From: Pseudomonas sp. MM213 | GTDB taxonomy: Bacteria > Pseudomonadota > Gammaproteobacteria > Pseudomonadales > Pseudomonadaceae | Length of the DNA stretch: 64,000 nucleotides | Direction: 5' to 3' | NCBI RefSeq assembly: GCF_020423045.1 | Contig: NZ_CP081943.1 | Location: forward strand, 2,976,001 to 3,040,000 | Shown: one piece after another, positions 1 through 53,247 of the stretch | Numbering within the stretch: the stretch's first letter is position 1 | Layout: the number at the start of each line of letters is the position of its first letter | Translations under genes and position numbers: made by a program | Notes under the pieces: model-generated | Seen by the model: only the letters and a program-made list of their open reading frames with translations | What the model was told of the DNA's origin: nothing | The model's database searches: none

Positions 1-1464
1 CGGGTTCAGCCAGTCGCGGCTCGGGGTGCCGTGCTTGCTGGTGATGATCTCGACTTGCTCACCGGTTTGCAGGCTGTAGTTGAGCGGTACGATGCGCCCG
101 TTGATCTTCGCGCCACGGCAGTTGTGACCGATCTCGGTGTGCACGCGGTAGGCGAAGTCCAGCGGCGTCGCGCCTTTCGGCAAGTCGATGGCGTGACCGT
201 CGGGGGTGAAGATGTACACCCGATCCGGCTCGATATCGACCCGCAGCTGTTCCGCCAGGCCGCCGATGTCGCCCAACTCTTCGTGCCACTCGAGCACCTG
301 ACGCAGCCAGGAGATTTTCTCTTCGTAGTGGTTGGAGCCGGACTTGACGTCGGTGCCCTTGTAGCGCCAGTGCGCGCAAACGCCCAACTCGGCCTCTTCG
401 TGCATGGAATGGGTGCGGATCTGCACTTCCAGCACCTTGCCCTCAGGCCCGATCACCGCCGTGTGCAACGAGCGGTAGCCGTTCTCTTTCGGGTTGGCGA
501 TGTAGTCGTCGAACTCTTTCGGGATGTGCCGCCACAAGGTGTGGACGATGCCGAGCGCGGTGTAGCAATCGCGCATTTCCGGCACCAGCACGCGAACGGC
601 GCGAACGTCGTAGATCTGGCTGAACTCCAGACCCTTGCGTTGCATTTTGCGCCAGATCGAATAGATGTGTTTGGCCCGGCCGCTGATGTCGGCATCGACG
701 CCGGTGGCCTGCAATTCGACTTTCAGCTGGTTCATCACATCGGCGATGAAACGCTCGCGATCCAGGCGCCGCTCGTGCAGCAACTTGGCGATCTGCTTGT
801 ACTGATCGGGCTCGAGGTAGCGGAAGGACAAGTCCTCCAGTTCCCACTTGATGTGACCGATGCCGAGACGGTGGGCGAGCGGCGCGTAGATGTCGAAGAC
901 TTCCCGGGCGACGCGGTTGCGCTTCTCGTCGTCGGCGGTTTTCACCGCACGGATCGCGCAGGTGCGTTCGGCCAGTTTGATCAGCGCGACACGCACGTCG
1001 TCGACCATGGCCACGAGCATCTTGCGCAGGTTTTCCACCTGGCCCTGAGTGCCCATCACCATGGATTTACGCGGGCTCAGGCTGTCGCTGATCGCCGCCA
1101 TGCGTTGCACGCCGTCGATGAGTTTGGCCACCACGGGACCAAAGCGCTGGCTGACCGCCGGCAACTGGATCTGACCTTCGCGCACGCCTCGGTACAGGAC
1201 CGCGGCGACCAGCGAATCCTGATCGAGCTTGAGGTCGGCGAGGATCTCGGCAATTTCAAGGCCGGTGCGGAAACTGGAGTTTCCCTCTGACCACAAATTC
1301 TTCGCCGCATTGGCTTGTTGTTCTGCCTCGCGAGCGTACTCGCAGGCTTCTTTCAAGGCTTCGCGATCCAGTGCCAGATCGACACTGACCGCATGATCGA
1401 GCCAAGCCTCGAGATTGATACTGCCGTCGGTGTTGATCGGCTGGTGTGCTCTCACCTGTACCAT
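1..1464 (-). CDS. relA: GTP pyrophosphokinase RelA ((p)ppGpp synthetase I), C-terminus outside window
   Basis: Makes (p)ppGpp from ATP and GTP/GDP when ribosomes stall on uncharged tRNA. The first 488 codons are present; the reading frame is open to base 1, so the C-terminal regulatory part is cut off. The ATG at 1464-1462 (MVQVRAHQPI) follows an AGGGAAGG-like ribosome binding site. The HD-hydrolase motif is degenerate (YRGVREGQIQLP where SpoT has HDxxED), as expected for a synthetase-only RelA. The synthetase region has YDVRAVRVLV and NGYRSLHTAV, followed by a TGS domain (IFTPDGHAIDLPKGATPLDF). It lies 122 bp downstream of rlmD on the same strand, as in other pseudomonads. Confidence 0.96.
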   Translation of the reverse strand, partial: MVQVRAHQPINTDGSINLEAWLDHAVSVDLALDREALKEACEYAREAEQQANAAKNLWSEGNSSFRTGLEIAEILADLKLDQDSLVAAVLYRGVREGQIQLPAVSQRFGPVVAKLIDGVQRMAAISDSLSPRKSMVMGTQGQVENLRKMLVAMVDDVRVALIKLAERTCAIRAVKTADDEKRNRVAREVFDIYAPLAHRLGIGHIKWELEDLSFRYLEPDQYKQIAKLLHERRLDRERFIADVMNQLKVELQATGVDADISGRAKHIYSIWRKMQRKGLEFSQIYDVRAVRVLVPEMRDCYTALGIVHTLWRHIPKEFDDYIANPKENGYRSLHTAVIGPEGKVLEVQIRTHSMHEEAELGVCAHWRYKGTDVKSGSNHYEEKISWLRQVLEWHEELGDIGGLAEQLRVDIEPDRVYIFTPDGHAIDLPKGATPLDFAYRVHTEIGHNCRGAKINGRIVPLNYSLQTGEQVEIITSKHGTPSRDWLNP

Positions 1465-34988: not shown

Positions 34989-35003
34989 GCAAGCGGCGTG
35001 CCA
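34989..35003 (-). promoter_or_regulatory. Sigma-54 promoter of flgBCDE
   Basis: Minus strand TGGCACG-CCGC-TTGC, identical in core to the dctA promoter. Predicted start near 34977, leaving a leader of about 34 nt. It fits class III flagellar genes activated through FleR in P. aeruginosa. Confidence 0.9.
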
Positions 35004-35124: not shown

Positions 35125-35377
35125 GTGTGCATATCCGTTTTGGGGGTAACGGCGGCTATTGGTTTCGCCCTTACGGCGAGTCACTTGGAAGAGCCCCAAG
35201 TAACCAAGGGCTTTTGCCCCTTTCGTTCGGTGCCTCGCCTAGGCTCGGCATACCCTCGCTCCGGTCCTGCTCCGTGGGCCCGCCGCCATCGGCCATCCAT
35301 GGCCGGGGGCGGCTAACCCGGCATCCATGCCGGGTTGCCCACTGCGCAGAACCTCCACTCGGCCTCTCGAGGGGGCG
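35125..35377 (+). repeat. Long intergenic repeat, copy A
   Basis: About 253 bp, nearly identical to the reverse complement of 35907-36163. It includes two internal palindromes (AACCCGGCATCCATGCCGGG and GGCCATCCATGGCC). It resembles the long intergenic repeats known in P. fluorescens genomes; I cannot name the family. Confidence 0.9.
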
Positions 35378-35906: not shown

Positions 35907-36163
35907 CGCCCCCTCGAGAGGCCGAGCGCAGGTTCTGCGCAGTGGGCAACCCGGCATGGATGCCGGGTTAGCCGCCCCCGGCCATGGATGGCCGATGGCG
36001 GCGGGCCCACGGAGCAGGACCGGAGCGAGGGCATGCCGAGCCACAGCGAGGCACCGAACGAAAGGGGCAAGAGCGCTTTGGTTACTTTCGCGCTTTTCGA
36101 AAGTGACTCGCCGTAAGGGCGAAACCAATAGCCGCCATAACCCCAGAAACGGATATACACACC
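35907..36163 (-). repeat. Long intergenic repeat, copy B (inverted)
   Basis: About 257 bp, the inverted partner of copy A. The two share the CCGCCATCGGCCATCCATGG segment and the flanks CCTCTCGAGG and CGCCCTTACGGCGAGTCACTT. The main difference is an insert with GAAAAGCGCGAAAG near 36095. Confidence 0.9.
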
Positions 36164-51390: not shown

Positions 51391-51432
51391 TGCAAATTGC
51401 ATCACCGCAAAAAGCCATCATTGCAAATTGCA
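51391..51432. promoter_or_regulatory. Two TGCAAATTGCA palindromes (candidate enhancer)
   Basis: The 11-bp palindrome TGCAAATTGCA occurs at 51391-51401 and 51422-51432. The copies are 31 bp apart (three turns) and about 70-110 bp upstream of the sigma-54 element at 51498. Confidence 0.7.
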
Positions 51433-51497
51433 ATGAGACCACCTTGCACGATTATCTTAATTCTTTGTTTTTAAAGGATTTAATAGCCGTTAGACTC

Positions 51498-51514
51498 TTG
51501 GCACGTCGGCTGCT
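51498..51514 (+). promoter_or_regulatory. Sigma-54 promoter of the two-small-protein operon
   Basis: TTGGCACG-TCGG-CTGCT, with GG at 51500-51501 and GC at 51512-51513. One base off the TGGCACG-N4-TTGCW consensus. Start predicted near 51525. Confidence 0.75.
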
Positions 51515-51527
51515 TCAGCTGTTCTCA

Positions 51528-51541
51528 AAGAACAACGGAGG
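51528..51541 (+). promoter_or_regulatory. Candidate Hfq/Crc motif overlapping the RBS
   Basis: AAGAACAAC is three A-A-N triplets and abuts GGAGG, the ribosome binding site of the gene starting at 51551. It would be at the very 5' end of the sigma-54 transcript. Confidence 0.55.
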
Positions 51542-51550
51542 TCAGCCCTC

Positions 51551-51784
51551 ATGAACCGCGCCCTTTTACTCTCGAACGCGATCGCTTTGGCGGTTTTTTT
51601 GGGTTTTCATTTTGTCCCGCAGAGCGGTGCCGAGCCGGTTGCCCAACGAATGCCTCATTACCTCCAGGTACAGAAGGCACCTCAATTGGCGGTGTTGGGT
51701 AATCAGCAGGGTTTTGTCGGTCAAGAAGTGAGTCAGGAAAATGTCCTGCTGCCAGCGCAGTCTTCAGAACGCCTGGCATTTTGA
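51551..51784 (+). CDS. Small secreted or membrane-anchored protein
   Basis: 77 aa. A hydrophobic N-terminus (MNRALLLSNAIALAVFLGFHF) acts as a signal peptide or anchor. The rest is polar (about 50 residues). A strong GGAGG site precedes it. It is first in a two-gene unit with the 59-aa membrane protein 21 bp downstream, behind a sigma-54 promoter. No family recognised. Confidence 0.72.
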   Translation: MNRALLLSNAIALAVFLGFHFVPQSGAEPVAQRMPHYLQVQKAPQLAVLGNQQGFVGQEVSQENVLLPAQSSERLAF

Positions 51785-51805
51785 ACAACCCATCAGGAGC
51801 ACAGC

Positions 51806-51985
51806 ATGTCCAAATCAGCCGCAGGATTTTTCGTCCTCGCCCTGCTCAGCGGCATTCTTCATTTATCACTGGTAGAGGACGCAATCGTCACTCTGCCGTT
51901 GATTGCCTGCGGCGTTTTCAGTGCGTTGTTTGTGCTGGCGCTGGTCGCTGGGCGCAAGATCAAGTTTGATCCGGTGTTGCGCTGA
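51806..51985 (+). CDS. 59-aa membrane protein
   Basis: MSKSAAGFFVLALLSGILHL start at 51806, with CAGGAGCACAGC upstream. Two hydrophobic segments (about 7-22 and 29-50) end in a basic tail (GRKIKFDPVLR). Its stop overlaps the 3' end of the convergent phnN by 26 bp. Probably co-expressed with the preceding small gene. Function unknown. Confidence 0.68.
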   Translation: MSKSAAGFFVLALLSGILHLSLVEDAIVTLPLIACGVFSALFVLALVAGRKIKFDPVLR

Positions 51986-52532
51986 CTTGTAGCAGCTTCA
52001 ACAGGCCGGCCACTGTGTCCGAAAGTTCGCCTGAATTGTCGAGTTGGTGGATAAGCGTCTCACCGACTGAGGCGTCCGCCGTGAACAGTTCATTTCTGCG
52101 CAATCTCGCCTCAATCTCCGCCAGACTTTCACGCCCCCGCCGCAGCAAGCGCTCTCGCAGCACGTCCTCCTTGACCGTCAACAGAATCGGCACCAACGCT
52201 GGATAGCAGCGTAGCGCCTGGGCCAAGTGCCCGCGGGAGCCGTTGATCAGGACATCCCTGCCCTCCTTGAGCCATTGATCGATCACGACGGGAATACCGT
52301 AATCCAGGCCATTGGCATGCCAGCACAGCGCGAAGTCGCCCTCTTCTTTGCGGCGCGCGAACTCTTCACGGGAAACACCGATGGCATCCTCGCCCACGGA
52401 TTCGGCTGAACGCGTAATGACCCGACGCACCACTTCGCAGTTGATTGCCTGCAAAGGCTCGCGAGCAGCCTCGATGAGACTGTCCTTGCCGGATCCGGAA
52501 GGCCCCATCAGGTAAATCAGTCTGCCATCCAT
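51960..52532 (-). CDS. phnN: Ribose 1,5-bisphosphate phosphokinase PhnN
   Basis: 190 aa P-loop kinase: Walker A GPSGSGKDSL, guanylate-kinase-like VVRRVITRSAESVGEDAIGVSREEFARRKEEGDFALCWHANGLDYGIP and a lid ERLLRRGRES. It makes PRPP from ribose 1,5-bisphosphate in phosphonate breakdown. None of the C-P lyase genes (phnG-M) that normally precede it are present, so it is an orphan here. The ATG follows a weak ribosome site. Confidence 0.93.
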   Translation of the reverse strand: MDGRLIYLMGPSGSGKDSLIEAAREPLQAINCEVVRRVITRSAESVGEDAIGVSREEFARRKEEGDFALCWHANGLDYGIPVVIDQWLKEGRDVLINGSRGHLAQALRCYPALVPILLTVKEDVLRERLLRRGRESLAEIEARLRRNELFTADASVGETLIHQLDNSGELSDTVAGLLKLLQVSATPDQT

Positions 52533-52920: not shown

Positions 52921-53247
52921 ATGCGCCCATTGAAACAGGCAATTTATTCCAGCCGTACGGCTGACAAGTTCGTCGTACGTCTGCCAGACGGAATGCGTGA
53001 ACGCATTGCCGAGGTGGCTCGCAATCATCATCGCAGCATGAACTCCGAAATCATTGCGCGCCTTGAGCAGAGTCTCATTCAGGAAGGCGCACTGGGTGAA
53101 GAGTTGAGCATGCGACTGGACAGCCCGGAGCTGTCACTGCACGAACGCGAACTGCTGCAGCGCTTCCGCCAACTCTCCCACCGTCAGCAGAACGCACTCG
53201 TTTCGCTGATTGCCCACGACGCCGAAATGGCCGCAGACGCCTCCTGA
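52921..53247 (+). CDS. amrZ: Ribbon-helix-helix regulator AmrZ
   Basis: 108 aa. It has the Arc-type fold [41 protein letters not shown] and a C-terminal tetramer domain [27 protein letters not shown]. The sequence agrees closely with AmrZ (AlgZ) of P. aeruginosa. It controls motility, exopolysaccharide and c-di-GMP genes in Pseudomonas. The N-terminal tail is two residues shorter than in the P. aeruginosa protein as I recall it. Confidence 0.95.

Follow-up and report, generated by a model that had tools for sequence, protein, structure and literature searches.

A conserved small-protein operon of Pseudomonas with a sigma-54-type promoter and paired upstream sites: a candidate AlgB-controlled signal for the AlgW protease

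Organization of the srgA–srgC operon

We propose, with a probability of about 0.55, that the small-protein operon srgA–srgC belongs to a sigma-54 regulon driven by AlgB, and that the C-terminal tail of SrgA triggers the pathway that runs from the protease AlgW through MucA to AlgU. The operon lies in the window, the stretch of 64,000 nucleotides of Pseudomonas DNA that we analysed, and consists here of only two genes on the plus strand, encoding proteins of 77 and 59 amino acids. The gene in the srgA position (51551–51784) encodes a protein with an N-terminal hydrophobic helix, a low-confidence tail and the C-terminus ERLAF. Conservation of the tail singled out the codons for these last five residues (51767–51781), which are the proposed ligand of the AlgW PDZ domain. 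The second gene, srgC (51806–51985), encodes a membrane protein of the PA3371 family. Outside the operon lie the convergent neighbor phnN (51960–52532, minus strand; TIGR02322, 217 bits) and a gene on the plus strand for an Arc/RHH regulator of alginate genes (52921–53247; Pfam Arc, 6.4e-26), which we take to be AmrZ. For comparison we collected 170 loci, comprising 90 that include the window's own and 80 named loci; 166 of them are distinct. A motif search of the fetched flanks found an amrZ-like gene near the operon in 83 of the 90 loci and in 55 of the 80 named loci. An Rfam search gave no match inside the operon.

The sequence-only reading had described a small envelope operon behind a −24/−12 promoter and a site repeated 31 bp apart, and these elements were borne out. 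Putative activator site 1, TGCAAATTGCA (51391–51401, plus strand), forms an imperfect palindrome about an odd centre, with the core TGCA-N3-TGCA. Exact copies of it start at 51391 and 51422, placing putative site 2, ATTGCAAATTGCAAT (51422–51432, plus strand), 31 bp from site 1 from start to start, or about three helical turns. The promoter, TTGGCACGTCGGCTGCT (51498–51514, plus strand), matches the sigma-54 consensus at 13 of 13 positions, with GG at 51500–51501 and GC at 51512–51513, so that both a GG-N10-GC element and upstream activator sites are present. Transcription is predicted to start at 51525 on the plus strand, about 12 nt past the −12 GC. Close to the 5' end of this predicted transcript (51528–51541, plus strand) is AAGAACAAC, a motif like the CA motif of Hfq/Crc, followed by the ribosome site GGAGG, as had also been noticed. 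The window has one further 13/13 sigma-54 match, at 35002 (minus strand), upstream of what we take to be a flagellar basal-body gene, flgB-like. Two equal-scoring matches to the TwoAYGGAY RNA were also observed on opposite strands of the window (35276–35340, minus; 35944–36008, plus), possibly as an inverted repeat element.

Rarity and conservation of the control region

Under a base-composition model about 0.007 exact copies of TGCAAATTGCA are expected per strand of the window, and this 11-mer occurs five times in the 6.75-Mb genome, with two of the copies at this operon. Single sites were less distinctive. Matches to TGCAAATTGCA with one mismatch numbered 4 in the window compared with a shuffle mean of 1.88, a value that is not unusual in that 4 was reached in 13 of 100 shuffles, and with three occurrences in the window against a shuffle mean of 2.15 the looser single site TGCANNNTGCA is not rare. 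The exceptional feature is the exact pair, not the single sites.

Both parts of the control region were retained across the loci that we collected. A GG-N10-GC promoter scoring 11–13 of 13 was found in 169 of the 170 loci and in all 166 distinct ones, among which the core TTGGCA-G----CTGC was nearly invariant; a strict search in a fixed distance window recovered the promoter in 75 of the 80 named loci. With spacings of 28–34 and up to two mismatches per site allowed, a TGCA-N3-TGCA pair was present in 165 of the 166 distinct loci, with no mismatch in the 16 bases in 115 of them, one in 49 and two in 1. The spacing was 31 bp in 138 and 32 bp in 27 of these 165 loci, corresponding to three turns of DNA, and this fits the expectation of two activator dimers on one face. 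By the stricter count of two exact TGCA-N3-TGCA sites upstream, the numbers were 80 of the 90 loci and 75 of the 80 named loci. In contrast, the exact form on which the sequence-only reading had been based, TGCAANTTGCA, occurred twice in only 16 of the 90 and 2 of the 80 loci. Thus the conservation check proposed with that reading favored the promoter and the relaxed sites but neither the exact palindrome nor the AAN triplets, which were found mainly in near relatives. The control region as a whole is more conserved than could have been known from the single sequence.

The same reading had suggested a nutrient-triggered operon under a sigma-54 activator and under catabolite repression by Hfq/Crc. 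AAGAACAAC is truly present beside GGAGG, and AANAANAA was enriched in near relatives (19 of 41; shuffle mean 0.27, maximum 2) and modestly so in more distant loci (8 of 49; shuffle mean 1.6, maximum 6), although these base shuffles left in the shared ancestry of close relatives, which inflates the enrichment. However, the motif was not enriched in the named loci (1 of 76; shuffle mean 2.0), and none of the genes examined behind paired sites was recognised as metabolic. Since its conservation is limited mainly to close relatives, we set the motif aside as a general feature of the operon; Crc control may still operate in particular lineages. We consider a nutrient trigger with Hfq/Crc repression very improbable as an explanation of the operon. 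Instead, the evidence presented below points to AlgB, the regulator of alginate and envelope stress, and to a MucE-like C-terminal signal on the first protein.

The paired sites mark a sigma-54 regulon

The exact pair (gap 12–28) was found at four places in the window's genome, and the reversed pattern at none. In 248 genomes of the family the exact pair (gap 18–21) was present in 171, compared with 0 for the reversed control among the rows listed. Every one of the 32 exact-pair loci that we tested (3 from the window's own genome and 29 from others) had a flanking sigma-54 match of at least 10/13, although these loci are not independent because many are srg loci and some come from near-duplicate relatives. 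For 18 of the 32 loci, chosen to include non-srg genes, 200 rounds of dinucleotide shuffling yielded 0.85 such matches on average and never more than 4. The distance from the promoter GG to the pair was 66–70 bp in 26 of the 32 loci and 55–56 bp in the other 6 (L279, L280, L281, L282, L286 and L292), which is about one helical turn nearer. This shift of the pair by one turn suggests that DNA phase matters. The fourth pair of the window's genome, at L105, is exact with a gap of 13, or has a gap of 20 with one mismatch, and is followed downstream by TGGCACAATCACTGCA.

A search for the pair at other sigma-54 promoters had been recommended as a way to identify the activator; those genes behind paired sites that we named by Pfam encode BON-domain proteins, DUF3509 and DUF1652. 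BON-domain, OsmY-like proteins are encoded behind paired-site sigma-54 promoters at L107:1000–1353 (minus strand) and L283:1689–2042, these two loci being the ones searched with Pfam; look-alikes were seen in L276, L287 and L299. At C1:1329739 a pair lies between an ecotin gene and a DUF1652 gene that diverges from it, and which of the two it serves is ambiguous: a 10/13 promoter 66 bp away faces DUF1652, as in L274, and weaker-placed matches face ecotin. In the open-access literature, judged by titles and the beginnings of abstracts, we found no relevant paper for the exact motif TGCAAATTGCA. We suggest the TGCA-N3-TGCA pair as a candidate motif by which the AlgB regulon could be traced across Pseudomonas.

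Co-occurrence and adjacency of the paired sites and algB

Support for an AlgB regulon comes from co-occurrence of AlgB with the pair and from adjacency of the pair to algB. AlgB was called with a probe of 44 amino acids from the AlgB tail at E 1e-3, a threshold loose enough to let through at least one weak hit, G306 (6.8e-5), which has no pair. The pair was present in 170 of 203 AlgB-positive genomes but in only 1 of 45 AlgB-negative genomes; that is, among the 248 family genomes 170 had both, 33 AlgB alone, 1 the pair alone and 44 neither (Fisher p 1.6e-26, a value that ignores kinship). The sole genome with the pair and no AlgB, G484, is 92% complete and in 350 contigs. Within the window's genus the corresponding numbers were 48, 2, 0 and 5 (48/50 versus 0/5). 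AlgB was also present in 99 of the 100 genomes with SrgC. The 33 of 203 AlgB-positive genomes that lack the exact pair count against our model.

In 13 of the 67 genomes that could be compared from the positions listed, about 2 kb separated srgC and algB. At L268, srgAC is followed by kinB and algB, both on the opposite strand, and beyond them by a divergent operon that has a pair and a sigma-54 site of its own. The names kinB and algB at these loci are our assignment; among the NCBIfam matches listed, these genes had only NtrC-type and histidine-kinase matches below cut-off. Paired sites flank algB on both sides in at least 8 genomes among the positions listed, L268 included, and the paired-site genes beside algB encode a three-BON-domain protein (L284 and L291) or form a DUF2383 plus DUF1328-type operon (L268). 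In the window's genome a looser pair with two mismatches and the sigma-54 site TGGCATGCAGGCTGCA lie between algB and a divergent operon, which encodes a 95-aa first protein ending in ERWVF and a DUF1328 protein (L148:1059–1346 and 813–977, minus strand). This operon of two small proteins shares the promoter type of srgAC and may constitute a parallel signal.

Another sigma-54 enhancer-binding protein could act at the paired sites, with AlgB merely co-distributed, and the window's genome contains 26 strong matches to sigma-54 activators. However, the pair is nearly absent where AlgB is absent, and its position on both sides of algB likewise argues against a different activator, an explanation that we regard as rather improbable. 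AlgB is the likely activator of the paired sites, judging from these genomic associations.

Published expression data touch on the same genes, among them PA5482, which we take to be a neighbor of algB. In a low-shear experiment three operons were reported to be down together, including PA3370–PA3371 and PA5482–PA5481 (PMC4981712). Expression of PA3369–PA3371 was reported to be lowered in a PA2206 mutant (PMC3557286), indicating that the operon has other inputs. A search of the open-access literature found no DAP-seq study of AlgB.

SrgC and the relationship to P. aeruginosa srgABC

The 59-aa protein matched NF041882, the PA3371 family, with an E value of 4.2e-24 and 85.3 bits, well over the cut-off of 50, and it is a member of this family on that basis. 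SrgC ends in GR(K/R)xKFDPxLR in a 7-row alignment. A single-sequence search found SrgC matches in 180 of 298 genomes of the same genus, and 100 of the 248 family genomes had SrgC over the curated cut-off.

PA3371 is srgC of srgABC (PA3369–PA3371), which encodes three small proteins and was described in 2023 for its role in serum resistance of P. aeruginosa; SrgA was predicted to be a periplasmic protein that is cleaved at Gly27 (PMC9901815). PA3369 is also named in PMC2998477. The earlier statement that the operon has no described function is thus not supported, an orthologous operon having been published, and the statement that it is undescribed is only partly right. Only 8 residues of the tail of the first protein align, so that orthology of the first gene is based on position, promoter and tail.

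Locus L255 fits the published operon: a 91-aa frame with Gly at position 27 and the ending QAWTF is followed by a frame of 48 amino acids and then by a 61-aa protein of the PA3371 family (70.3 bits). The only exact pair in the genome of L255 (count 1) matches the pair before srgABC. The SrgB-like 48-aa protein (L255:2733–2879, minus strand) has a hydrophobic stretch and no NCBIfam match, and it was seen at L255 alone among the srg loci with ORFs listed.

In the published account, overexpression of srgABC in a mutant went together with raised expression of algU, algR and mucABCD and with increased alginate production (PMC9901815), which fits release of AlgU. The same account describes a plasma phenotype of SrgA overexpression that was independent of alginate, and no plasma phenotype of an srgABC deletion in P. 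aeruginosa (PMC9901815). It is gene position, promoter and tail that would link the SrgA phenotypes to the window's protein. The main text of PMC9901815 contains no match for RpoN, sigma-54 or AlgB, and neither sigma-54 control of srg nor a link to AlgW was found in the open-access main texts searched.

The C-terminal tail of the first protein

The 77-aa protein had no match in Pfam, NCBIfam or PHROGs, and the named entries among the homologues listed were hypothetical or uncharacterized. Its C-terminus was conserved. When ORFs ending in F were preferred where several were possible, the tail [LWF][VITA]F was present in 88 of the 90 loci (44 LVF, 29 WVF, 5 LIF, 3 FVF, 3 WIF, 2 LAF, 1 WAF and 1 FTF); the two misses were L048, where the frame is interrupted, and L064, where SrgC is also short. 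At L048:1240–1480 the tail codons are kept behind the interruption of the srgA frame, which may be a natural change or a sequencing error. The tail [LWF][VIT]F was found in 79 of the 80 named loci (61 WVF, 9 WIF, 4 FVF, 2 WTF, 2 LVF and 1 LIF), the single miss being L224, which begins about 250 bp upstream of srgC. All 120 of the homologues listed, from a total of 242, ended in F, and 104 of these ended in LVF. In an alignment of 29 diverse members with a mean column identity of 28%, only the M1 and F77 columns showed no variation, and L5 and A47 were close to invariant. AlphaFold2 predicted a helix at residues 2–20, a short turn of helix and an otherwise unstructured chain, with a mean pLDDT of 61.

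The window's protein therefore has the features of the MucE type, being small with a hydrophobic N-terminus and a C-terminal hydrophobic-x-Phe, but not an exact WVF. It ends in LAF, and its close homologues mostly end in LVF. LVF and LAF tails may be weak AlgW ligands, which counts against our model.

A different role for the tail also has to be considered. AlgB and sigma-54 could control the operon as we suggest while the proteins act directly on the envelope by protecting the membrane or peptidoglycan, in which case the terminal Phe would be no AlgW ligand and the AlgU response would reflect generic stress. Along these lines, the authors of the published account propose that the proteins interfere directly with the complement pore, or act on peptidoglycan or another envelope component (PMC9901815), and the other paired-site genes, encoding BON and DUF proteins, lack such a tail among the translations listed. 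However, direct action would not account readily for a protein in which only the first and the last residue are invariant and in which the model, at low confidence, leaves most of the chain after the first helix unstructured, nor for the ERWVF ending of the first protein of the algB-adjacent operon. We consider direct action on the envelope unlikely, and we favor the reading in which the tail is a ligand of AlgW.

The proposed target is available in the window's genome, which encodes a DegS-type protease of 386 amino acids (L300). It matched TIGR02038 below cut-off, and its best match was the solved AlgW (E 1e-193). According to a published alternative, algW itself is transcribed under the control of RpoN (PMC3684759). 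The 300 bp upstream of algW in the window's genome contained no sigma-54 match of 8/13 or better.

Proposed model of AlgW activation

In our model, AlgB would become active when it is phosphorylated and the phosphatase activity of KinB is off. From the paired TGCA-N3-TGCA sites, bound AlgB would then contact sigma-54 RNA polymerase about 67 bp downstream and open the promoter. SrgA would be exported, its N-terminal hydrophobic helix entering or crossing the inner membrane, and its flexible tail would present the C-terminal hydrophobic-x-Phe tripeptide in the periplasm. Binding of this tripeptide to the PDZ domain of AlgW, as for the WVF of MucE, would activate the protease, which would cut the anti-sigma factor MucA, leaving AlgU free to induce genes for envelope stress and alginate. 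For SrgC, a small membrane protein with weak similarity to DUF1328, a probable role is to support or modulate SrgA.

More broadly, SrgA-type proteins might be widespread, dedicated ligands of the AlgW PDZ domain that are made on the command of KinB and AlgB from sigma-54 promoters with paired sites, a generalization that we consider evenly balanced. If it is correct, a two-component system would open regulated proteolysis by synthesising its own peptide trigger. KinB-dependent mucoidy is described in later papers as dependent on RpoN and as proceeding via proteolysis of MucA. Our model would explain this RpoN-dependent mucoidy of kinB mutants by supplying the missing step between AlgB/RpoN and AlgW-dependent MucA proteolysis. 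With an operon, an enhancer motif and a C-terminal signal in hand, the KinB and mucoidy question becomes directly testable, and a mechanistic reading can be offered for the serum-resistance gene srgA.

Comparison with known systems

MucE (PA4033) offers a precedent for the proposed signal. Protein L308 (89 amino acids), encoded in the genome of L255, is what we take to be MucE; it ends in SVRDETRWVF, and its upstream region has neither a paired site nor a sigma-54 match. Similarity to SrgA did not extend beyond the tail: 8 residues aligned, with an hhalign probability of 7% for L308 against the SrgA profile. MucE acts by way of its C-terminal WVF to activate the protease AlgW, and mucE is driven by AlgU and has been reported only from P. 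aeruginosa (PMC3819740). Like MucE, the SrgA type is a small protein with a C-terminal hydrophobic-x-Phe, and overexpression of mucE or of srgABC is accompanied by more alginate; in contrast to mucE, the SrgA-type genes have sigma-54 promoters and are widespread, and many of their products end in LVF. PilA108, a truncated pilin that ends in FTF and acts via AlgW, resembles our proposal for SrgA in its C-terminal x-x-F tail and in AlgW-dependent mucoidy that requires RpoN (PMC3684759). However, PilA108 is the by-product of a mutant, whereas we propose the SrgA type as a dedicated signal.

The window's operon shares with P. aeruginosa srgABC the SrgC family, the order of the first and last genes, a small first protein with a hydrophobic N-terminus and, at L255, the same type of promoter with paired sites. 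It differs in having two genes, without a separate SrgB, where L255 has three, and only the last 8 residues of its first protein align with SrgA of L255 (hhalign probability of 8% with a 29-row profile). SrgC is weakly similar to DUF1328/UPF0391 proteins, which are present in the algB-adjacent paired-site operons and which matched NF041882 below cut-off (E 6e-5 and 2.1e-6; hhalign probability of 69%). The two DUF1328 proteins examined end in GRRGR(G/V), unlike the KFDPxLR tail of SrgC.
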